This document shows positions 12,201-56,100 of a stretch of 64,000 bases of DNA, in pieces. A model generated the notes under the pieces. That model was given only the letters and a program-made list of their open reading frames with translations, was not told where the DNA came from and searched no databases. The DNA comes from Ridgeia piscesae (lineage: Eukaryota > Annelida > Polychaeta > Sabellida > Siboglinidae). A program made the position numbers and the translations under genes. The stretch lies in NCBI GenBank assembly GCA_025642075.2, contig JAODUO010001195.1, forward strand, positions 35,001 to 99,000, given 5' to 3'. Positions within the stretch are counted from its first letter, which is position 1. Every line of letters begins with the position of its first letter.

Positions 12201-15200
12201 ACAAGTCAGAGGTACACTGTCACTGATTGTCATGGACAAGTCAGAGGTACACTGTCACTGGTGTGTCCGGACAAGTAGAGGTACACTGTCACTGATGTGT
12301 CATGGACAAGTCAGAGGTACACTGTCACTGGTGTGTCATGGACAAGTCAGAGGTACACTGTCACTGGTGTGTCATGGACAAGTCAGAGGTACACTGTCAC
12401 TGGTGTGTCATGGACAAGTCAGAGGTACACTGTCACTGATGTGTCATGGACAAGTCAGAGGTACACTGTCACTGGTGTGTCATGGACAAGTCAGAGGTAC
12501 ACTGTCACTGATGTGTCATGGACAAGTCAGAGGTACACTGTCACTGATGTGTCATGGACAAGTCAGAGGTACACTGTCACTGATGTGTCATGGACAAGTC
12601 AGAGGTACACTGTCACTGATTTGTCGTGGACAAGTCAGAGGTACACTGTCACTGATGTGTCATGGATAAGTCAGAGGTACATTGTCACTGATGTGTCATG
12701 GACAAGTCAGAGGTACACTGTCACTGATGTGTCATGGACAAGTCAAGGGACACTGTCACTGGTGTGTCATGGACAAGTCAGAGGTACACTGTCACTGATG
12801 TGTCATGGACAAGTCAGAGGTACACTGTCACTGATGTGTCATGGACAAGTCAGAGGTACACTGTCACTGATGTGTCATGGACAAGTCAGAGGTACACTGT
12901 CACTGGTGTGTCATGGACAAGTCAGAGGTACACTGTCACTGGTGTGTCATGGACAAGTCAGAGGTACACTGTCACTGGTGTGTCATGGACAAGTCAGAGG
13001 TACACTGTCACTGGTGTGTCACGGACAAGGAGGTACACTGTCACTGGTGTGTCACGGACAAGTCAGAGGTACACTGTCACTGGTGTGTCATGGACAAGTC
13101 AGAGGTACACTGTCACTGATGTGTCATGGACAAGTCAGAGGTACACTGTCACTGGTGTGTCACGGACAAGTCAGAGGTACACTGTCACTGGTGTGTCACG
13201 GACAAGCCAGAGGTACACTGTCACTGATGTGTCATGGACAAGTCAGAGGTACACTGTCACTGATGTGTCATGGACAAGTCAGAGGTAAATGTCACTGGTG
13301 TGTCACGGACAAGTCAGAGGTACACTGTCACTGATGTGTCATGGACAAGTCAGAGGTACACTGTCACTGGTGTGTCGTGGACAAGTCAGAGGTACACTGT
13401 CACTGGTGTGTCACGGACAAGTCAGAGGTACACTGTCACTGGTGTGTCGTGGACAAGTCAGAGGTACACTGTCACTGATGTGTCGTGGACAAGTCAGAGG
13501 TACACTGTCACTGATGTGTCATGGACAAGTCAGAGGTACACTGTCACTGATGTGTCATGGACAAGTCAGAGGTACACTGTCACTGATGTGTCATGGACAA
13601 GTCAGAGGTAAATGTTTACTGATGTGTCATGGACAAGTCAGAGGTACACTGTCACTGATGTGTCATGGACAAGTCAGAGGTACACTGTCACTGATGTGTC
13701 GTGGACAAGTCAGAGGTACACTGTCACTGATGTGTCATGGACAAGTCAGAGGTACACTGTCACTGATGTGTCGTGGACAAGTCAGAGGTACACTGTCACT
13801 GGTGTGTCACGGACAAGTCAGAGGTACACTGTCACTGATGTGTCATGGACAAGTCAGAGGTACACTGTCACTGATGTGTCATGGACAAGTCAGAGGTACA
13901 CTGTCACTGATGTGTCGTGGACAAGGCAACTTCTACTGCACCCGAGTCCATGGTAATATTGGAATTTTGAAAAACTCCTAAAATTTAACAACGGATTTTG
14001 CTTAAGGATGAATTTTCCTTAAGAGCTCTTATGTTAGTGAAATGATCCACATATTTCTCTGGTGTATACGTATACACATTTACCTCTCAAGAAACTTGTT
14101 TTTGGTCTACATATAAAAAAGACAAGCTTTTTGAGAGGTAAATATGTACATATTGAATATAGTTCATCAATCACAAAAACACTAGTAAAGATGATGACAA
14201 CTACCCCTTTTTGTGTAAATAATTATAATTAAATAATTACATATGTGCCCCCACCATTTTTAAAATGAAGTTTTGTATACACTCAAACACATTAAATATG
14301 TACATCAGATTAATGTAATATTTAAGAATAATTTACTCGTGTATTAAATATGCACAGTTAGTAATGCAATACTTAATAATAATTATACTTGTGCAATACT
14401 AATTAGTTTGGAAATGTCTATGGAGCAGGCAGTTGACTTACTGTCTGTACAGGTCTTATTATCCGTGTTTAGTTCGTAGCCAGGCATACACGAGCACACG
14501 TAGTGGCCAGGCTTGTTGGTGCAAATCTGTTGGCAGTCGGATAATTTCTCTCCACATTCATCCACGTCTGCAAAAAGCGCAATTGTTTTTAAAAAATTAC
14601 AATAATCAAGCTAGCATGCACAGGATTGTTAGTTTCAACAACTCACCACTCATGATATTAACAGTTTCCTTCAGAATGTCTTTTTGAAGTATCTGCAGTT
14701 ATTTTTATCCTAAAAGGGGGTTTGCTTTGTACAGTTCATGACTATGGATGTTCATATACCTTTAGTTCCAGTTCAGAAAGTTTTCGCTCGCTGACTAGTA
14801 CTGATATCAGTCAGACTGCTGGTGATGTTCTTTCATAACTATTTTACATCTCATTTACCAGAGGTATTTTTATCATTTAAAAATGTTGATGTGACGTTAA
14901 CAGAGTTCACACAGACTCAGTGTTGGTTTGTATGCAGCCTAAACTTTTATTTAGGTTTATGCCTCCTCAAAAGTTTACTACTTCAATCATTACAGCTTCA
15001 GTGTTGGTCTAAGTGTAGATATGGAGTGATCAAAACAAGATTCTTTGGAATATATTCCTCCTTCCTGTGACACTCGCCTGTGCAAGTCTTGCCGTCCCCT
15101 GTGAGTCTGTAGCCAGGGTCACAGTCACACACGAAGCCCGGCTGGACAGTGACAAACCCTGGCACCTTGTTGATGCAACGTTGGGTACAGTCATGTAGAG

Positions 15201-18200
15201 GGTGGGTCTTGTCACACTCATTCACATCTAGGCAACAACAAAGTCATGTAGAGGGTGGGTCTTGTCACACTCATTCACATCTAGGCAACAACAAAGTCAT
15301 GTAGAGGGTGGGTCTTGTCACACTCATTCACATCTAGGCAACAACAAAGTCATGTAGAGGGTGGGTCTTGTCACACTCATTCACATATAGGCAACAACAA
15401 AGTCATGTAGAGGGTGGGTCTTGTCACTCATTCACATATAGGCAACAACAAAGTCATGTAGAGGGTGGGTCTTGTCACACTCATTCACATCTAGGCAACA
15501 ACAAAGTCATGTAGAGGGTGGGTCTTGTCACACTCATTCACATCTAGGCAACAACAAAGTCATGTAGAGGGTGGGTCTTGTCACACTCATTCACATCTAG
15601 GCAACAACAAAGTCATGTAGAGGGTGGGTCTTGTCACACTCATTCACATCTGGGCAACAACAAAGTCATGCAGAGGGTGGGCCTTGTCACACTCATTCAC
15701 ATCTGGGCAACAACAAAGTCATGTAGAGGGTGGGCCTTGTCACACTCATTCACATCTGGGCAACAACAAAGTCATGCAGAGGGTGGGCCTTGTCACACTC
15801 ATTCACATCTGGGCAACAACAAAGTCATGCAGAGGGTGGGCCTTGTCACACTCATTCACATCTGGGCAACAACAAAGTCATGTAGAGGGTGGGTCTTGTC
15901 ACACTCATTCACATCTGGGCAACAACAAAGTCATGTAGAGGGTGGGCCTTGTCACACTCATTCACATCTGGGCAACAACAAAGTCATGTAGAGGGTGGGC
16001 CTTGTCACACTCATTCACATCTAGGCAACAACAAAGTCATGTAGAGGGTGGGCCTTGTCACACTCATTCACATCTAGGCAACAACAAAGTCATGTAGAGG
16101 GTGGGTCTTGTCACACTCATTCACATCTAGGCAACAACAAAGTCATGTAGAGGGTGGGCCTTGTCACACTCATTCACATCTAGGCAACAACAAAGTCATG
16201 TAGAGGGTGGGCCTTGTCACACTCATTCACATCTAGGCAACAACAAAGTCATGTAGAGGGTGGGTCTTGTCACACTCATTTACATCTGGGCAACAACAAA
16301 GTCATGTAGAGGGTGGGCCTTGTCACACTCATTCACATCTGGGCAACAACAAAGTCATGTAGAGGGTGGGCCTTGTCACACTCATTCACATCTGGGCAAC
16401 AACAAAGTCATGTAGAGGGTGGGCCTTGTCACACTCATTCACATCTGGGCAACAACAAAGTCATGTAGAGGGTGGGCCTTGTCACACTCATTCACATCTG
16501 GGCAACAACAAAGTCATGTAGAGGGTGGGCCTTGTCACACTCATTCACATCTGGGCAACAACAAAGTCATGTAGAGGGTGGGCCTTGTCACAGACATTCA
16601 CATCTGGGCAACAACAAAGTCATGTAGAGGGTGGGCCTTGTCACAGCATTCACATCTGGGCAACAACAAAGTCATGTAGAGGGTGGGCCTTGTCACACGC
16701 ATTCACATCTGGGCAACAACAAAGTCATGTAGAGGGTGGGCCTTGTCACACGCATTCACATCTGGGCAACAACAAAGTCATGTAGAGGGTGGGTCTTGTC
16801 ACACTCATTCACATCTGGGCAACAACAAAGTCATGTAGAGGGTGGGCCTTGTCACAGTCATTCACATCTGGGCAACAACAAAGTCATGTAGAGGGTGGGC
16901 CTTGTCACAGTCATTCACATCTGGGCAACAACAAAGTCATGTAGAGGGTGGGTCTTGTCACACTCATTCACATCTGGGCAACAACAAAGTCATGTAGAGG
17001 GTGGGCTTGTCACACTCATTCACATCTGGCAACAACAAAGTCATGTAGAGGGTGGGCCTTGTCACACTCATTCACATCTGGGCAACAACAAAGTCATGTA
17101 GAGGGTGGGTCTTGTCACACTCATTCACATCTGGGCAACAACAAAGTCATGTAGAGGGTGGGCCTTGTCACACTCATTCACATCTGGGCAACAACAAAGT
17201 CATGCAGAGGGTGGGCCTTGTCACACTCATTCACATCTGGGCAACAACAAAGTCATGCAGAGGGTGGGTCTTGTCACACTCATTCACATCTGGGCAACAA
17301 CAAAGTCATGCAGAGGGTGGGCCTTGTCACAGTCATTCACATCTGGGCAACAACAAAGTCATGCAGAGGGTGGGCCTTGTCACACGCATTCACATCTGGG
17401 CAACAACAAAGTCATGTAGAGGGTGGGCCTTGTGACACGCATTCACATCTGGGCAACAACAAAGTCATGTAGAGGGTGGGCCTTGTCACAGCATTCACAT
17501 CTAGGCAACAACAAAGTCATGTAGAGGGTGGGCCTTGTCACACGCATTCACATCTAGGCAACAACAAAGTCATGTAGAGGGTGGGCCTTGTCACACTCAT
17601 TCACATCTAGGCAACAACAAAGTCATGTAGAGGGTGGGTCTTGTCACACTCATTCACATCTAGGCAACAACAAAGTCATGTAGAGGGTGGGTCTTGTCAC
17701 ACTCATTCACATCTAGGCAACAACAAAGTCATTAGAGTGGGTCTTTCACATCATTTACATCTAGGCAACAACAAAGCTACATCTACAGCTTCATACCCAT
17801 GCCACATTACATTTCACCTACAGTACACTTCATCACGGCCACAATACACTTCACCCACACCTACACTACACTTCACCCATGGCCACACTACATTTCACCT
17901 ACAGTACACTTCATCCACGGACACAATACACTTCACCCACAGCTACACTACACTTCACCCATGGCCACACTACATTTCACCTACAGTACACTTCATCCAC
18001 GGACACAATACACTTCACCCACAGCTACACTACACTTCACCCATGGCCACACTACATTTCACCTACAGTACACTTCATCACGGCCACAATACACTTCACC
18101 CACAGCACTGTCATACACTCACTGTCCGGTGCTCTCTAACATTCACCACAGTAACTCATCTGAGGCCACACAAACATCCACCAAGCCACTCATTCACACA

Positions 18201-21200
18201 GCGTAAGTGACCGAACTAATGCAATTGAGAGAGAGTGGGGAGGGAGAGAAAAGGGAGGGGGAGATGGAAAGGCGGGGGAGAGAGAAGGAAAGGGAGGCAG
18301 AGGGAGATGTGAAACGAGGGGGAGAGATTTAAGCAATGAGAACAGAGGAGAGGTTCAGGAGGCGGGGAAGTTGAAAGTGAGAGGGAGTGGGAGACAGACG
18401 TGTGGCGACCATGAGGGGAGAGAGTTAGGAACAGGGAGAGAGTACTTGCAGTCGACCTGATGCAGTAACTATTCAATCTCTCCGTTGTGACATCAGTTGC
18501 TCTGTGACACCCACCTACACACACTCCGTCACTGTACTCATAGCCTGGTGGACACTGGCTACAGTTGAAGGCGGTGCCCTGGTCAGCCTCTCCTGAGGCA
18601 CAATACACTTCACCCACAGTACAGTACCGTCTCACCCATGGCCACACTAAATTTCACCTACAGTACACTTCATCCACGGACACAATACACTTCACCCACA
18701 GCTACACTACACTTCACCCATGGTCACACTAACATTTCACCTACAGTACACTTCATCCATGCACACAATACACTTACCCACAGCTACACTACACTTCCCC
18801 ATGGCCACACTAAAATTTCACCTACAGTACACTTCATCACGGCACAATACACTTCACCACAGCTAACTACATTCACCCATGGCACACTACATTTCACCTA
18901 CAGTACACTTCATCCACGGCCACAATACACTTCACCCACAGCTACACTTCACTTCACCCATGGCCACACTACATTTCACCTACAGTACACTTCATCACGG
19001 CCACAATACACTTCACCCACAGCTACACTACACTTCACCCATGGCCACACTACATTTCACCTACAGTACACTTCATCTACGGCCACAATACACTTCACCC
19101 ACAGCTACACTTCACTTCACCCATGGCCACACTAACATTTCACCTACAGTACACTTCATCCACGGCCACAATACACTTACCCACAGCTACACTACACTTC
19201 ACCCATGGCCACACTACATTTCACCTACAGTACACTTCATCCACGGACACAATACACTTCACCCACAGCTATACTACACTTCACCGTTGGCCACACTAAC
19301 ATTTCACCTACAGTACACTTCATCCACGGACACAATACACTTCACCCACAGCAAATCTGCTCAGTTGAACACTCAGCTGTCTCGGTGCTTCTCTGGAAAG
19401 CATTCAGCCACACTGTAATAATACTGAGGCTAATCTTACACAAACATCCACCAATGCCACTCATTCACACAGCGTAAGTGACCGAACTAATGCAATTGAG
19501 AGAGAGTGGGGGAGGGAGAGAAAAGGGAGGGGGAGATGGAAAGGCGGGGGAGAGAGAAGGAAAGGGAGGCAGAGGGAGAGTGTGAAACGGAGGGGGAGAG
19601 AGTGGTTAAGGGCGAGATGAGAGAGAGAGGGAGGGGAGAAGGTTCAGGAGGGGGGAAGTTGGAAAGTGAGAGGGATGGGAGACAGAGACAGTGTGGCAGA
19701 GGGATTGAGGGGAGAGAGTTAGGAAGCAGGGAGAGAGTTACTTGCCAGTCGATACCTGACCCTGCATTGTTCGTAACTAATTCAATCTCTCCGTTGTGAC
19801 ATCAGTTGCTCTGTGACACCCACCTACACACACTCCGTCACTGTACTCATAGCCTGGTGGACACTGGCTACAGTTGAAGGCGGTGCCCTGGTCAGCCTCT
19901 TCCTGAGGGGTCAAGTCAGTGCAGTTCGTCCCTGCAGTACAGGGACCGTCTCCACAACCATCAAAGTCCTCGGTACAATGTGCTCCTGAAACATGTCAAT
20001 GAATGTGTCACCATGATCCTGGAATCATTGCTAATATCAATATTATTAGTAGTACTGAACCAACGTTGTTTGTAGTTTTTAATAATATGCTCTAGTACAA
20101 TAAACAATTTGAATATTTTCAGAATGAAAGGCCATTAATTAGTTTTAATGTGCCACACATCCAGTGACCTCATCTCCAAGACAACGTACTCAATCATCAG
20201 AATTCCTGCATCAATGACCACCCAGGTTGTCATGTCGACCAGGTAATCTAATACACAATTTCATTTAAATAACTGTTTGAAATACCAAAAAACCAACACA
20301 AATGGAACAAGTGATCCACCGACTATGTAAATATCATCAGTGTAGATGTTTAACAACAGACAAACATGACAGAAAGGCGGGTTACAAAAGGAAAACCAAA
20401 TCCTGGGTCCTCGTTCAGCCGAAGCGTTCCTCGTTCCATTATTAACTATCTCAGTTCCTCACCTGTCCACCCAGTGGTGCAGTTGCAGGCAACGACTCTG
20501 AACATGGCCGACACTTTCTGTCCACTGGCTCTCTTGCCGAACAGACAGTCACCTCGAATTGAGCAGTGGCACATGTTGATGAGGACACTGGCAGATGGCG
20601 CCACTGCTCCTTTTGCATCAGTCGCAGCGAATCTGCATCGGTGTCGAAACTTTAACTCAATTCCCCATTCTAAATTAATTGAAATATTTCGGTGTATTAA
20701 TATGTATCATTTATACACTTTAATGAAATTTACATTTTTGGTTTATTAGTGATAAGGAGTAAGAGCAATAGTGATAGGGAGTAAGAGCAATAGTGATAGG
20801 GAGTAAGAGCAATAGTGATAGGGAGTAAGAGCAATAGTGATAGGGAGTAAGAGCAATAGTGATAGGGAGTAAGAGCAATAGTGATAAGGAGTGAGAACAA
20901 TAGTAATAGTGATAGGGACTAATTATGATAGGGAGTAAGGTTGATAGGGACTAATTGTGTTAGGGAGTAAAGTTGATAGGGACTAATTGTGTTAGGGAGT
21001 AAGGTTGATAGGGACTAATTGTGATAGGGAGTAAGGTTGATAGGGACTAATTGTGTTAGGGAGTAAGGTTGATAGGGACTAATTGTGTTAGGGAGAGAGA
21101 ACAACAGTAATAGTGATAAGGACTAATTGTGATAGGAGTGAGGTTGATAGGGACTAATTGTGTTAGAGAGTAAGGTTGATAGGGACTAATTGTGTTAGGG

Positions 21201-47100: not shown

Positions 47101-50100
47101 AAGGCCAGTGCTGGAAGTGAGTTTTCAAGACGAGTGCATCTTGTGTGCGGCGACAGACTTCTGTGTTTTAACCTGTATATTTCAAAAACAATTAATGTAG
47201 GACTGTTACAGGTGTGTATTCGTCACAACAATCAACATATTCACTGGGGGGAGGGGGTCAAGAAAAGCGTACTCTTTGTACGCTTCTACAAATTTGGACA
47301 ATTATGAAGACAGTGGTTGTGATGGCAAAACAAGATAGTAAAGGTTTGCAAACAATAATTGTAGTTCTAGTTGTTTCCAGTGCTCTGCAACATTGTGTTA
47401 ATTGATTGAGTGACTGGTCTGAATATATATCGTCGTTACTATGTTAACGTCTTACATGATCACATTCAACTGGTCAGCCTTTTTTCAGAAAAATTATAAC
47501 CAAGCCAACTAACCATTCTATGCTGGCACTGAGGGTGGTCACAATTTCTTTCCTATGCACGACAGCCATAACATTTTATGTCCTTTAATTAAATGTTAAT
47601 TAAACTTATCAGCAACAGTTCCTCAATAATTTGAATTTCCTGGAATATATTTCCAGACATACCTGTTCATAGAATTCATTGTAGTACATGCGTGGCGTGC
47701 TGTCTATCCAGGATATCACCATCACCCACGAGGGATCGATTGCAGACGACCCACCATAATCCACAGTGTCTCTCTTTGCGAGTTGCAAGGCATGTTTCAA
47801 TCGATACTTCTCAGTTATGCTCAGACCACTTTTGGTGCGATCATAAATGTGGTACGTCACTTGTCCAGCTTGAAAGTTGGCATCCGTCCATAGCGGTGCA
47901 AACATCGCAAATCCATTGTCATAAGCTGACCGTTTCTTGCTGCTTGACACAGTGAAGAAATCTGTCGGCATGCGTCGGTTGTACGACTGACCCATGGTGA
48001 TGTAGCCATTGGAGTAGATCTGTGAGTCGCAGAAAACACTTCATTAACAAAATCAACATGAATGATCAAGAGAGTGTGTGAGAACAACTTTACTGCACAC
48101 ACATACACTGTGTCCAATGCCAGAGTTCAGATACCTGTGAGATTACAAAGGTACTAACCTGTCATGACATGATGTCTATATGCAAACGACCTTTTGTAAA
48201 AGTGGCAGATGATAAGTTAATACATTTTGAGATCTCCAAATTACATACTTTTGTTATGCCTGATAATCAACACTGTGTACATTACTGAATAATGGGTGAA
48301 AGCAATGATCTTGAACTTAATCCAAATATACCCTAAGCCACTGCCTCCCAACTGTAAGCCACTGTCTCCCAGCTGTAAGCCACTGCCTCCCATCTGTAAA
48401 CCACTCCCTCCTAACTGTAAGCCACTCCCTTCCAACTGTAAACCACTCACTCCTAACTGTAAGCCACTCCCTCCCAACTGTAAGCCACTCCCTCCCAACT
48501 GTAAGCCACTGCCTTCCAATTGTAAAACACTCAGTCCTAACTGAAAGCCACTCCCTCCCAACTGTAAGTCACTCCCTCCCAACTGTAAACCATTCCCTCC
48601 CAACTGTAAGCCACTGCCTTCCAACTGTAAACCACTCCCTCCGAACTGTAAGCCACTCCCTCCCAACTGTAAGCCACTCCATCCGAACTGTAAACCACTT
48701 CCTCCCAACTGTAAACCACTCCCTCCCAACTGTAAACCACTCCCTCCCAACTGTAAACCACTTCCTCCCAACTGTAAGCCACTCCCTCCCAACTGTAAGC
48801 CACTGTCTTGCAACTGTTAGTCACTGCCTGTCAAGTGTAAGCCACTCCCTGCCAACTGTAAGCCACTCCCTGCCAACTGTAAGCCACTTCCTGCCAACTA
48901 AAAGCCACTTCCTCCAAACTGTAAGCCACTCCCTCCCAACTGTAAACCACTCACACCTAACTGTAAGCCACTCCCTCCCAACTGTAAGCCATTCCCTCCC
49001 AACTGTAAGCCACTCCCTCCCAACGGTAAACCATTTCCTCCCAACTGTATGCCACTCCATCCCAACTGTATACCACTCCCTCCCAAATCTAAACCACTCC
49101 CTCCCAACCGTAAGCCACTCCCTCCTAACTGTAAGCCACTCCCTCCCACCTGTAAGCTACTCCCTCCAACTGTTCAGTTATGTAATCTTCATCAAATGTC
49201 TGGTACGAACCTGGTGTGCAGCTAGAGCTCTTTACAAACAACATACCTCCTCTGGAGTGAGGGTACCGTACTTGTTTTATTAAGCATATGGTATGCTTAA
49301 GAAAACATTCTTAATTAAACACACTTCTTTTATGACAAAATGGTGGTGCCACCTAGCATAGGTTAACTGTTTCCACAATTAGTAATTTGCTTCCTTCTAA
49401 AGTTAGAACAGTTGAAAGTATTGTTAAATTCCGCCATAATTTTAAAACATACCATTACAACCTTGCCTATCCACCATAGCTCCCTAGTGTATCAATCAAT
49501 CTGTTGACAACTGGAATTTTTAATGACTCCGAGATCGATTAACCTTTGTCATTGATGCGCTTCTGAGCTTGGTTTCCAATGATTTTGGTGCAATAAATGT
49601 TATCTACTGGTATTATTAAATTTGCTGTCTCTGTTGTAAACTAACATGGTGCCGCTGATGTAAATTCAAGCTGGAATGGCAAATGGTAATATAAATTGTC
49701 TAGAAATGATTTATTCATCCAGACGTGTGTTTATGTAGTCAAAGGGATGCAGAGGCTGCTGATGCAGGTGGAACTTTGTGATGTTGTCATTGGGTCAGTG
49801 GTTCAGGTTACTGTAGTAACTGCAATCAATGATGAATCTGATGTGTTCGTTATTTAGGGAACGCACGCTTAATATAATTAATATAGTATCTGCATGCGGC
49901 TAACCTTAATGTCCGTGAACTCGGATGAGAATATCTTCATTCGAGGTGTTCCGATGAACCCTGAGGAGCAACTCTTGCCAGCCCAGTCACAGCTAAGGGT
50001 TGTAGTTCCCCAGTCGAGGGTCACATCCCCCTGCTGGGAGCCATAGGGATACAGACGCCTCATCACCACTGAACACACAAATAAAACAACAAACTCCATT

Positions 50101-53100
50101 ACCTCACACAAGATAAGGTAAAGGTAATTTCTTATATGTATAGCGCAACACCCAATCCTAAGGATTGGGTGTTGCGCTATTATTGTTACTCCCTGGCAAA
50201 CTTGTTCAATCAAAACACCATCTCTGCAATTACTCCGCGAACACTATTCGTACACAAATATACACCTATGTCTATAGCTAGGTACTCATTTATACAGATG
50301 AGTGAACTGGAGCAATGTAGAGGGAAAAGAACTGCCCAAAGTTTGACACTACAGCCCAGGAGTTCAAGTCTGGATCTCTTAGTTGAGTCAAAGGTTCTAG
50401 CCACTGCACTACTAAAATTACGCAACAAACTGGCTGTAGCAATTATTACAAACACAGTACTTTGAACTTCAATTAATTCTTATTGGCTGCATAATATGTT
50501 CAATCACCAGGCAGTGGCACGATTTTCTGGTAAACCAAACATAACAGGACAACACTGCCCTCTGGAGGGTATAAAACTTATCACTCAACTGGTTGACTGT
50601 TTCCCATGTGGGCATTGATCACGTCACTTAATTACTCTAAATAATGAGATATGCATTTTCTTAACGCATCACCAACTGGTAGGTGCTAGGCCAATGATCT
50701 AAGGAAGTGACACAATACAGGAAATGGCGAGTGGAACTTGGCACACCCCATGGTGTCTGGGGGAGGGTTACACCCAGTGGTGCCTGGAGGAGGGTTACAC
50801 CCAGTGGTGTCTGGAGGAGGGTTACACCCAGTGGTGTCTGGGGGAGGGTTACACCCAGTGGTGTCTGGAGGAGGGTTACACCCAGTGGTGTCTGGGGGAG
50901 GGTTACACCCAGTGGTGTCTGGAGGAGGGTTACACCCAGTGGTGTCTGGGGGAGGGTTACACCCAGTGGTGTCTGGAGGAGGGTTACACCCAGCGGTGTC
51001 TGGGGGAGGGTTACACCCAGTGGTGTCTGGGGGAGGATTACACCCAGCAGTGTCTGGAGGAGGGTTACACCCAGCAGTGTCTGGAGGAGGGTTACACCCA
51101 GCGGTGTCTGGGGAGGGTTACACCCAGCGGTGTCTGGGGGAGGGTTACACCCAGCGGTGTCTGGGGGAGGGTTACACCCAGCAGTGTCTGGGGAGGGTTA
51201 CACCCAGCGGTGTCTGGGGGAGGGTTACACCCAGCGGTGTCTGGGGAGGGTTACACCCAGCGGTGTCTGGGGGAGGGTTACACCCAGTGGTGTCTGGGGG
51301 AGGGTTACACCCAGCAGGTGTCTGGGGGAGGGTTACACCCAGCGGTGTCTGGGGAGGGTTACACCCAGCAGTGTCTGGGGGAGGGCTACACCCAGCGGTG
51401 TCTGGGGGAGGGTTACACCCAGCAGTGTCTGGGGGAGAGGTACACCCAGCGGTGTCTTTGGGATGGTTACACCCACCAGCGATGTCTAGGGGAGAGTTAC
51501 ACCCAGTGGTGTCTTGGGGAGGGTTGCACCCAACAGTGTCTGGGGGAGGGTTACACCCAGCAGTGTCTGGGGGAGGGTTACACCCAGCAGTGTCTGGGGG
51601 ACGGCTACACCCAGCAGTGTCTGGGGAGGGTTACACACAGCAGTGTCTGGGGGAGGGTTACACCCAAAGATGTCTGGGGAGGGCTACACCCAGCAGTGTC
51701 TGGGGGACGGCTACACCCAGCAGTGTCTGGGGAGGATTACACCCAGCAGTGACTGGGAGAGGGTTACACCCAGCAGTGTCTGGGGAGGGTTACACCCAGC
51801 GGTGTCTGGGGGAGGGTCACACCCAGTGGTGTCTGGGGGAGGTTTACACCCAGCGGTGTTTGGGGAGGGTTACACCCAGCAGTGTCTGGGGGAGGGTTAC
51901 ACCCAGCAGTGTCTGGGGGAGGGTTACACCCAGCAGTGTCTGGAAGAGGGTTACACCCAGCGGTGTCTGGAGAAGGGTTACACCCAGCGATGTCTGGGGG
52001 ATGGTTACCCCTCAGCAGTGTCTGGGGGAGGGTTACACCCAGCAGTGTCTGGGGGAGGGTTACACCCAGCGGTGTCTGGGGGAGGGTTACACCCAGTGGT
52101 GTCTGGGGGAGGGTTACACCGAGTGGTGTCTGGCGATCATTTCACTAACGTTTTTTAAACCCGATTTTACCCTTTAAAATCAATTTTGATCCATAACAAT
52201 GATCTTGAATACCCGAAAACTGTCAACATAATGACGCGCCAGCGGGACATTGTCACTGGTGTGTCACAAAAATTGTGTTCTCAGTAATATGGCAATGGAT
52301 ATTTGCATTTTGAAAAAATATTTACTTCAACAACCTATTTTGTTTAAGTATGAATTTTCATTAAGAACTCTTCATCTTAGTGAAACTGTCCCCTGGACAA
52401 GATCTTTGTGAAAGCGGCACATCTATGACATACCTGTCTGACAGTTGACTCCTGTGTAGAGGTCAGGCAGACAACTACAGCTGTAGCCACTGACCAGGTC
52501 CATACAGCTACCTCCATTCTCACAGGGACCACTTTCACACTCGTCTATGTCTACAAACAGAATAAACATCAGTTTTTACTTTAAAATAATAAGTAAGTAA
52601 GTTCTTATATAGCGCAGTGTCCAGTCCTCAGGACTGCTCAAAGCGCTTTACACATTACTTCCCTGACAGACCTGTTCAACCATACACCGTCTCACCTTAT
52701 CTATGCATACAAACATCCACCACTATTTATAACCAGGTACTCATTCATACAGCTGAGTGAGCAATGTCGAGTGAAAAAAACTTGCCCAAGGTTTCGCACA
52801 ACTGCACAGGATTTGAACTCAGGTTCTCTTAGTCGAGAGACCAAAGCTCTACCTCTGAGCCACTCCACTCTATGCAATATATATTTCTTAGGACTGCTCA
52901 AAGTGCTTTTCACCTTACTCCCTAGCAAACATGTTCTCTCAAACACCACCTTGACTTCTCATATATAGCTTTGGTACAATTACAGCAAGGATATTATCTG
53001 TACATAAATTTCTGAAATAAAAAGGTTAAAATTTCCCCCCTAAAAAAATAAAGTAAAAAAAACCCCCAAAACAACTTTAAAAACAAACTATTCCTTTTTT

Positions 53101-56100
53101 TTGCCTCCCGTGAAACGTTTTTTCAATGACGACACCACACCTATGGGATGGCCTGCTGAACTGTGTGTGCCTTCTAGACCCACTTGAAGTTTTCAAGTCT
53201 CATTTAAAAAACAATTTATAAGGCTGCATTTGATGCTATCAGGATATTAAAGAAAAAATTGAAATAATAATTTGGCAGAGCAGTATTTTTCAGGAGCAGT
53301 TTCATATATTATATATGACACGCGTATACGACACATATAATACATATCTGACACGACATAATAACCATGCATGAGACAGACAATCACCCAATGCCCCATG
53401 CATAGAGTGTATCTTAACCAGAATTATAGTTTCTAAACATATTTTAGTATCTTACTCTATCAGTAATTATTAACTTCTTAATTAATTTTATTACAAATGT
53501 AATATTACATTTTTATTCTATCTATTACTGTATTGTCGATAAGCTTAGGTTATAATTTATAATTTTTAGAAGCTTTATTTATTTATTTATTATTATAATG
53601 AAACATTTTGTTTACCGTGCAAGCTTAATTTATCATGAATATTTTATATATTCAAGTTGTATTTTATGTGTCTCTGAGCGGAATTATATTCTGGAAATTC
53701 AACACTTTATAAATAATTTGTTTTATTATTACCATAATATTCTGCAGCAATTTCAATTTGACTTTTTCTGAAAGAATTCTCTAGAGACGTATCTGTGCTG
53801 TAGTCTTCTGTTTCCCGTCCAGTGTGCCTGATATAAGATGTGTTTGCACCAGACTTACCTGTTTCACAGCTCTCCCCAGTGAAGCCAGACACACAGGAGC
53901 ACAAGTACAACTCTCTGCCGCCACTAGAGCAGTTGGCACCATGCTGACATGGACTCGATGAACAGCCATCTCCCACTGAAACAAAATTTCAATGTCGTAT
54001 TTGGACAGAATGTTACAGGACAACATCAATATACCTCTAAGCTTGTTTTCTAAAAGGAGTTAGGCGCAATAGAAGTTATCTAATTATTATTATTATGTCC
54101 CCAATCCATCTCGAGTGGGTCACCAGGAGTCCAAACTATATGTCCCACTAAACTACACCAAATAATTAAAGACATACAGTAGACTCTCACAGGTATTCCA
54201 CATGATCTGGAAAGAAAGATCTCTCATGGGTCAATGGATACTTTATAACTTAAAGGTGTTTGGCCATGGCTTCTCTTGGGAAAAGCTGTGCAACGACTTC
54301 AGTATGGAAACCTGATATACAATTTCTTCTAACACTTAACTACCAGCTGAGCACTAGTATCGCATCACAAGCCGAGGAACTCAATCGAATTTGGAATTTA
54401 CTCGCATGGATTAGGGTAAATAATGATCGCTCATTCTCAAGGACAGGTGACAGTGCTGACACATGTCTCGAAGCCATTCCTTATCAATTCAAACTATGTT
54501 GATGTCTCAGAATATTTTTTTTTTAAACAAGTAAAAAAGTCATGATGCTATCAGAATATTAAAGAAAAAATTGAAATAATAATTTGGCAGCAGTATTTTT
54601 AAGGAGCAGTTTCATATATGATATATGACATGCGTATACGACACGTATATATACATATCTGACACGACATAATAACCATGCATGAGACAGACAATCACCC
54701 AATGCCCCATGCATGTAAGAAGACTAGATGGGATGGCTAATATGAAGCAACTAAACAAAAACATGCAAAACACATGTTAACTAACATACATTTCAATGGA
54801 ATTGTCTTGAATCAGGTTGAATCAGTTACTCACTCGTTCATGCCAAACTGTAAGTCTGAGTATATTATATTAAGGCATTTACTAGTAAGGAAAACATTTA
54901 GCAAATCTCAACAGAATCATTTAATAGAACTGCTTTGCAACACATTGCGCAAATCATTCTATCCAGTACATGGTGCACGATGGTTCTAGCTAGCTGGTAG
55001 TCCCTTGTTATAGACAACTAGTCCTGGATATGTTTTTCCTATGTAAAAGGAACAGCTCTGACAAGTCCGAGCTCTAAAACTACTTGTCCCAGACGATCAG
55101 ACCAGCCTTATTTCGCACCCTGCATTACAGATGACTTGATCATTTCGTCCATGTATCTACATGTGCTATTCTTATTCGACATGAGGGGATCCAATGGCCG
55201 ATGGAAACAGCCCCACCTAGGTGTAACAGGGAGACTCAGAAAGTGCATAGTGCAGGCTGCCTGTATTGTTTAGATAAGGGACTTGATGCTGCCTGTATTG
55301 TTTAGATAAGGGACTTGATGCTGCCTGTATTGTTTAGATAAGGGACTTGATGCTGCCTGTATTGTTTAGATAAGGGAATTGATGCTGCCTGTATTGTTTA
55401 GATAAGGGACTTGATGCTGCCTGTATTGTTTAGATAAGGGACTTGATGCTGCCTGTATTGTTTAGATAAGGGACTTGATGCTGCCTGTATTGTTTAGATA
55501 AGGGACTTGATGCTGCCTGTATTGTTTAGATAAGGGACTTAATGCTGCCTGTATTGTTTAGATAAGGGACTTGATGCTGCCTGTATTGTTTAGATAAGGG
55601 ACTTGATGCTGCCTGTATTGTTTAGATAAGGGACTTGATGCTGCCTGTATTGCTTTAGATAAGGGACTTGATGCTGCCTGTATTGTTTAGACAAGGGACT
55701 TGATGCTGCCTGTATTGTTTAGATAAGGGAATTGATGCTGCCTGTATTGTTTAGATAAGGGACTTAATGCTGCCTGTATTGTTTAGATAAGGGACTTGAT
55801 GCTGCCTGTATTGTTTAGACAAGGGACTTGATGCTGTCTGTATTGTTTAGATAAGGGACTTGATGCTGCCTGTATTGTTTAGATAAGGGACTTGATGCTG
55901 CCTGTATTGTTTAGACAAGGGACTTGATGCTGCCTGTATTGTTTAGATAAGGGACTTGATGCTGCCTGTATTGTTTAGATAAGGGACTTGATGCTGCCTG
56001 TATTGTTTAGACAAGGGACTTGATGCTGCCTGTATTGTTTAGATAAGGGACTTGATGCTGCCTGTATTGTTTAGATAAGGGACTTGATGCTGCCTGTATT

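Follow-up and report, generated by a model that had tools for sequence, protein, structure and literature searches.

In a 64,000-nucleotide stretch of the genome of the siboglinid annelid Ridgeia piscesae (contig JAODUO010001195.1, positions 35,001 to 99,000 of the forward strand; hereafter the window), the intron preceding one exon of a mucin-like gene contains a long tandem array whose repeat unit spans that exon's own 3' splice site. The exon is called exon 17 here, following the numbering of the original prediction, which had been made by reading the DNA letters. The array is probably a mirage, as tandem duplications of an intron–exon boundary have been termed in amphioxus, that was born by chance duplication and is tolerated, rather than an attenuator that is maintained. 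The observations behind this reading are the anatomy of the array, the recurrence of similar arrays at other acceptors, an exon breakpoint common to two paralogs, and the presence of decayed-looking arrays elsewhere in the genome.

Tandem Repeats Finder (TRF) describes the array as having a period of 53 bp, 49.0 copies, and 97% matches. Each unit consists of 14 intron bases (TTGTTGTTGCC[C/T]AG) followed by the first 39 bases of exon 17, and the final unit is the real acceptor together with the start of the exon. The original prediction of an array built on the exon's own acceptor is therefore confirmed, as is the span of the unit across the junction, while its estimate of about 15 intron and 38 exon bases was off by one on each side. 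An AG is present at 47 of the 49 acceptor positions, corresponding to the real site and 46 decoys, fewer than the approximately 48 upstream AG sites first counted. The acceptor positions comprise 30 CAG and 17 TAG, the two common variants in which AG was said to be kept, and two broken sites that read TAT (units starting at 15403 and 15454). AG shows no sign of better retention than other positions of the unit, as it is lost in 2 of 49 units and accounts for one of the eight variable positions. Of 48 units, 42 are full-length; they vary at these 8 of 53 positions and fall into 15 distinct types. Over the 39 exon bases, 14 of the 48 upstream units are identical to exon 17.

The identity of the seed as a true exon has also been examined. 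The minus-strand gene in the window is mucin-like, with NIDO, VWD, and EGF_CA domains recognized by Pfam on the joined exons and an AMOP domain assigned by reading. The best protein matches are from siboglinid tubeworms, and among matches above 85% one R. piscesae protein agrees with three exons of contig C1272 at 100, 98, and 100% and another with one exon of C1274 at 100%; amphioxus was accordingly rejected as the host. Exon 17 aligns over its full length (150 bp) with two paralogs at 91% and 89% identity and is positioned among the exons of this gene, which supports its status as an exon; its predicted phase of 1 is correct. A chance match between the repeat unit and the exon is unlikely, as a pattern search of the genome for tandem pairs of EGF_CA acceptor starts returned 134 matches, versus none for the reversed pattern.

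Comparison of the copies of exon 17 offers insight into the history of the array. At least five other homologs are present in the genome (six copies with that of the window), and near copies of the acceptor occur in the 1.5 kb upstream of two of these six, the window's included. The second is the paralog on the independent contig C5, which carries 4.5 units of a diverged repeat across the same exon 17 junction. The paralog on contig C1942 has a single acceptor at exon 17 and no array, and the remaining three homologs have no near copy of the acceptor within 1.5 kb upstream. When read by eye, the exon breakpoint CATGACT|TTGTTG is common to the C5 and window arrays, which suggests either one seeding event followed by loss in C1942, or transfer. 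Judged by exon identity, C5 and C1942 form the closest pair, and the window gene falls outside it.

The original prediction considered an array seeded across a functional splice site to be unusual. This is correct only in part, as a class of such arrays has been published from amphioxus and the arrangement occurs repeatedly in the R. piscesae genome. The two paralog loci contain six further arrays that span or reach a junction, five at acceptors and one at a donor (Table 1); three of the six exons concerned were read by eye and are absent from the tblastn models. One exon bears acceptor arrays with different units in C1942 (46 bp) and C5 (64 bp), perhaps reflecting independent births. Among the 100 of the 134 genome-wide matches that were listed, three lie on C5, 74 on C211, one on C612, and 22 on C699. 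The array on C211 has a 37-bp unit and at least 74 tandem pairs, that on C699 a 57-bp unit and at least 22 pairs, and that on C612 at least one pair; translation of the array ends indicates that an EGF exon begins at the acceptor in all three. In the C211 and C612 arrays, the break falls at nearly the same point of the exon (GATGAGTGT). Because of this coincidence, a short GT-rich similarity between the intron end and the exon start may seed the duplication.

The frequency of such arrays was assessed in a rank-ordered sample of 40 EGF_CA exons (the top 41 of 150 listed from 3072 candidates, less one with a very long open frame), 38 of which passed the acceptor rule. Near copies of the exon's own acceptor were found upstream of three of the 40: four 70-bp copies on C123, decayed-looking copies on C312, and a single weak copy (23/30 bases), also decayed-looking, on C454. 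When the centres are fixed and the threshold is kept, 2 of the 40 sampled exons pass, versus 1 of 1560 cross-locus comparisons.

Table 1. Positions of the exon 17 array, the surrounding features of the window, and the junction arrays of the two paralog loci.
Feature	Position	Strand	Units × period (bp)	Basis or detail
53-bp minisatellite, 49 units	15189..17776	−	49 × 53	TRF, unit listing and counts
Presumed real 3' splice site AG	15228..15229	−		Sequence; exon start conserved in paralogs
Two adjacent decoys, AG mutated to AT	15387..15439 (at 15387-15388, 15438-15439)	−		Unit listing
Exon 17, EGF_CA domain, phase 1, array seed	15078..15227	−		Paralogs, gene model, Pfam
Exon 17 donor, GC (CAG|GCGAGT)	15076..15077	−		Sequence; GT in C5 and C1942
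Exon 16 (upstream exon), phase 1 end, donor GTGGGT (19823)	19824..19985	−		Gene model and sequence
Extra exon 16 tail and donor, same intron as array	18515..18599	−		In ~1.3-kb duplicated block
Other arrays in exon 16–17 intron, without exon 17 junction	17777..19352	−	82/164-bp units	TRF
Acceptor array	C5:933747-934351		11 × 55
Acceptor array	C5:934890-936288		21 × 66
Acceptor array	C5:930306-930954		10 × 64	Site TAG|GTAATG
Acceptor array	C1942:85583-88932		59 × 57
Acceptor array, decoy AGs, no exon bases	C1942:62593-63388		17.4 × 46	TRF
Donor array, EGF exon end	C1942:75130-77998		62 × 46 (doubled 23-bp unit)	TRF; GGCAGGACATGTACAG|GTAAGAT, AG|GT site

Based on these findings, a mechanism can be proposed for the origin of the array. 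First, a tandem duplication that by chance included the exon 17 acceptor and both of its flanks would have started the minisatellite. Unequal exchange would then have expanded it. Splicing would mostly select the copy that is continuous with the remainder of exon 17 and with the exon's donor, via exon definition, with the upstream copies staying intron at low cost and some decoy use, with nonsense-mediated decay (NMD), being tolerated. The uniformity of the array would be a product of its own turnover, not of selection for decoys. That arrays turn over (49 units, 4.5 units, or none at the exon 17 paralogs, and decayed-looking copies at other exons) with no special retention of AG favours tolerated birth and decay.

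The manner in which the real acceptor would be chosen has been probed with a rough acceptor matrix, built on 57 sites kept from 66 placed by an automatic rule. The real site scores 2.86 bits on this matrix and the 48 upstream sites score between -3.5 and 12.2. Since 46 of these 48 equal or beat the real site, local sequence is unlikely to single it out. The likely cue is its position beside the remaining part of exon 17 and the donor, and success of the real acceptor through position or context, much as the original prediction proposed with position or downstream enhancers, remains the best available reading.

Several results weigh against the tolerated-mirage account. The high matrix scores of the upstream sites are among them, as is the distance to the nearest decoys: because these would stretch the exon to only 203 or 256 nt, exon definition alone may fail to exclude them, and the GC donor of exon 17 would, if anything, make exon definition weaker. 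Copy number of the array is known from one draft assembly, and the protein of the window gene itself is not among the 31 protein matches listed. In addition, arrays that span a junction are a minority even in this genome, because acceptor junctions hold fewer near copies than intron windows do. In a scan of 71 exon models from the three paralog loci for near copies of the 50 bp centred on each junction, a scan that misses arrays with few exon bases, near copies were found at 2 of 71 acceptors, versus 7–12 of 71 in windows placed 40–400 bp into the intron.

The idea that mirages occur at most junctions was rejected on the basis of the same scan, which found near copies at those two acceptors and at 3 of 71 donor positions, one of which is a duplicate (18514). 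On the donor side, windows placed from 400 to 40 bp into the intron contained near copies in 10, 6, 4, 2, and 1 of 71 cases, with no clear drop at the junction (3/71).

The alternative that fares best, although it appears rather unlikely, is that the array functions as a recombination engine, trading sequence with its exon and with paralogs such that the copies in the intron become a source of coding changes and move the exon between genes. Synonymous sites were compared over 17 of the 20 window models (the duplicate at 18516 was excluded, as were the EGF-like matches at 52441 and at 53818), with exon spans taken from tblastn matches that include a few flanking codons; the span at 49902 is the window's matched model. 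Outside exon 17, 61–62% of synonymous sites differ between the window gene and each of the paralogs C5 and C1942. Within exon 17, the window gene differs from C5 at 9/34 sites, versus 419/691 in the other 16 exons (Fisher p = 1.1e-4), and from C1942 at 8/35, versus 423/685 (Fisher p = 8.8e-6), the lowest value of the 17 exons in both comparisons. Between C5 and C1942, exon 17 is no outlier (8/33 versus 232/676, p = 0.26). Because exon 17 is so much closer to its paralogs at synonymous sites than the 16 other exons are, its low divergence is best read as conversion between paralogs, probably together with the array. Also consistent with exchange is a codon variant (Ala/Thr) at base 21 of the exon: of the 42 full-length units, 16 have A and 26 have G, in a mixed arrangement, and exon 17 of the window has A where both C5 and C1942 have G. 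Furthermore, the 57-bp units in C1942 match the C5 junction over up to 59/59 bp and, by eye, fit it better than they fit the adjoining C1942 exon. In contrast, the array-bearing exons of C5 for VWD and AMOP are not unusually close to C1942 in the synonymous comparison, exon 17 is the single clear case, and constraint on its synonymous sites is an alternative to conversion. It is thus suggested only tentatively that mirages may be exchange points, at which an exon and its decoys are moved or rewritten as a block, and that exon 17 may have been transferred, with its Ala-to-Thr change coming from, or spreading through, its own decoys.

Improbable, in comparison, is the tunable attenuator put forward in the original prediction, in which decoy use would rise with copy number and the length of the array would set the output of the gene through premature stops and NMD. 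Exon 16 ends in phase 1, and all 46 decoys are consequently predicted to reach a stop after 9–29 codons, at least 153 nt before the end of exon 17. The expectation that choice of a decoy would truncate the message is thus upheld, while the exact 17-letter decoy peptide given for it applies to 9 of the 46; most CCAG decoys would end in ...VVAQM*. The use of poison exons and NMD-coupled alternative acceptors likewise gives a premature stop, and the exon 17 decoys resemble them in this respect. The matrix scores of the upstream sites and the wide spread in copy number between paralogs would also suit an attenuator. Unlike poison exons, however, the decoys show no sign of conservation by selection: C1942 has no array, AG shows no retention above other positions, and two of the three arrays found in the EGF_CA sample look decayed. 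In addition, Adh3 data and globin reverse-transcription polymerase chain reaction results are described, in the accessible text of the amphioxus globin paper, as suggesting that regular splicing is undisturbed by mirages (PMC3087553).

A long-read misassembly that created the repeat or its copy number is very improbable, for although numerous small indels make the duplicated exon 16 block (17.8–18.6 kb) and the C1942 intron look unpolished, and COX1 is broken by frameshifts, the 42 full-length units fall into 15 distinct types, the independent contig C5 has the same array with a diverged unit, and other genes have the same type of structure. The COX1 gene in question lies on a 15.6-kb contig (C3158) and reads in shifting frames, perhaps reflecting uncorrected reads.

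The window as a whole is rich in repeats. Tandem arrays (27 of period 9 or more) make up approximately 59% of it, versus 10% and 25% of the two paralog loci, and the window's giant arrays (57-bp and 36-bp) have no splice junction of the modelled exons inside them. Positions 17800–19905 contain a tandem duplication of approximately 1.3 kb that comprises the tail and donor of exon 16, the intron sequence after them, and repeats of 82/164 bp. The downstream copy of this block is rich in small indels, which reflect either decay or poor polishing.

These arrays extend mirages beyond amphioxus, the only animal listed for them in the open-licence literature searched, as far as its accessible text goes. 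They also form a series from fresh to decayed-looking arrays, which is useful for the idea, put forward in the accessible text of the globin paper, that such duplications seed new introns (PMC3087553). Moreover, they provide a natural test of splice-site choice, in which 46 near-identical acceptors compete with one and paralogs have about three or none. Together with this series, the present analysis adds the finding that such arrays recur in an annelid and signs that paralogs have exchanged an exon.

Among known systems, the human UBC and VCX3A genes contain tandem units with dual-specific splice sites, in which a single site has both roles, donor and acceptor, and units of coding sequence are removed by splicing (PMC10809524, accessible text). 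Similar to these arrays, each tandem unit at exon 17 holds a splice site; in contrast to them, its sequence is AG|ATGT (AG|ATGTGA in full) and not the AG|GT of a dual-specific site. A better fit to the dual-specific idea would be the donor array of C1942 (ACAG|GTAAGAT) or the 64-bp array of C5 (TAG|GTAATG). The annelid literature searched, in its accessible text, describes no boundary-spanning array. The nearest case is that of minisatellites in earthworm metallothionein introns, for which, unlike the exon 17 array, no splice-site-spanning array is described there (PMC12783039).

The closest resemblance is to the mirages of amphioxus, for which the accessible portions of two papers provide the following picture (PMC3087553, PMC3902484). 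Mirages are minisatellite-like tandem duplications of an intron–exon boundary with units of 10–160 bp, many of which carry AG or GT, and they are known on both the acceptor and the donor side. Their copy number varies between haplotypes, as in BflGb6 with six and three units. The globin paper names them mirages, citing Adh3 for the term (PMC3087553), and the PGBD5 paper adds TnC and PGBD5 as further cases (PMC3902484). Like the arrays of Adh3, TnC, the globins BflGb6 and BflGb9, and PGBD5, the exon 17 unit spans a real exon–intron boundary and carries the splice signal (AG in 47 of 49 units), and its copy number differs, in this case between paralogs (49, 4.5, and none). Unlike the six and three units of BflGb6, the annelid array has 49 units. 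It also differs from the amphioxus cases, as far as their accessible descriptions go, in its recurrence at a paralog and among further EGF genes, in having decayed-looking counterparts, and in belonging to an exon that was apparently transferred.

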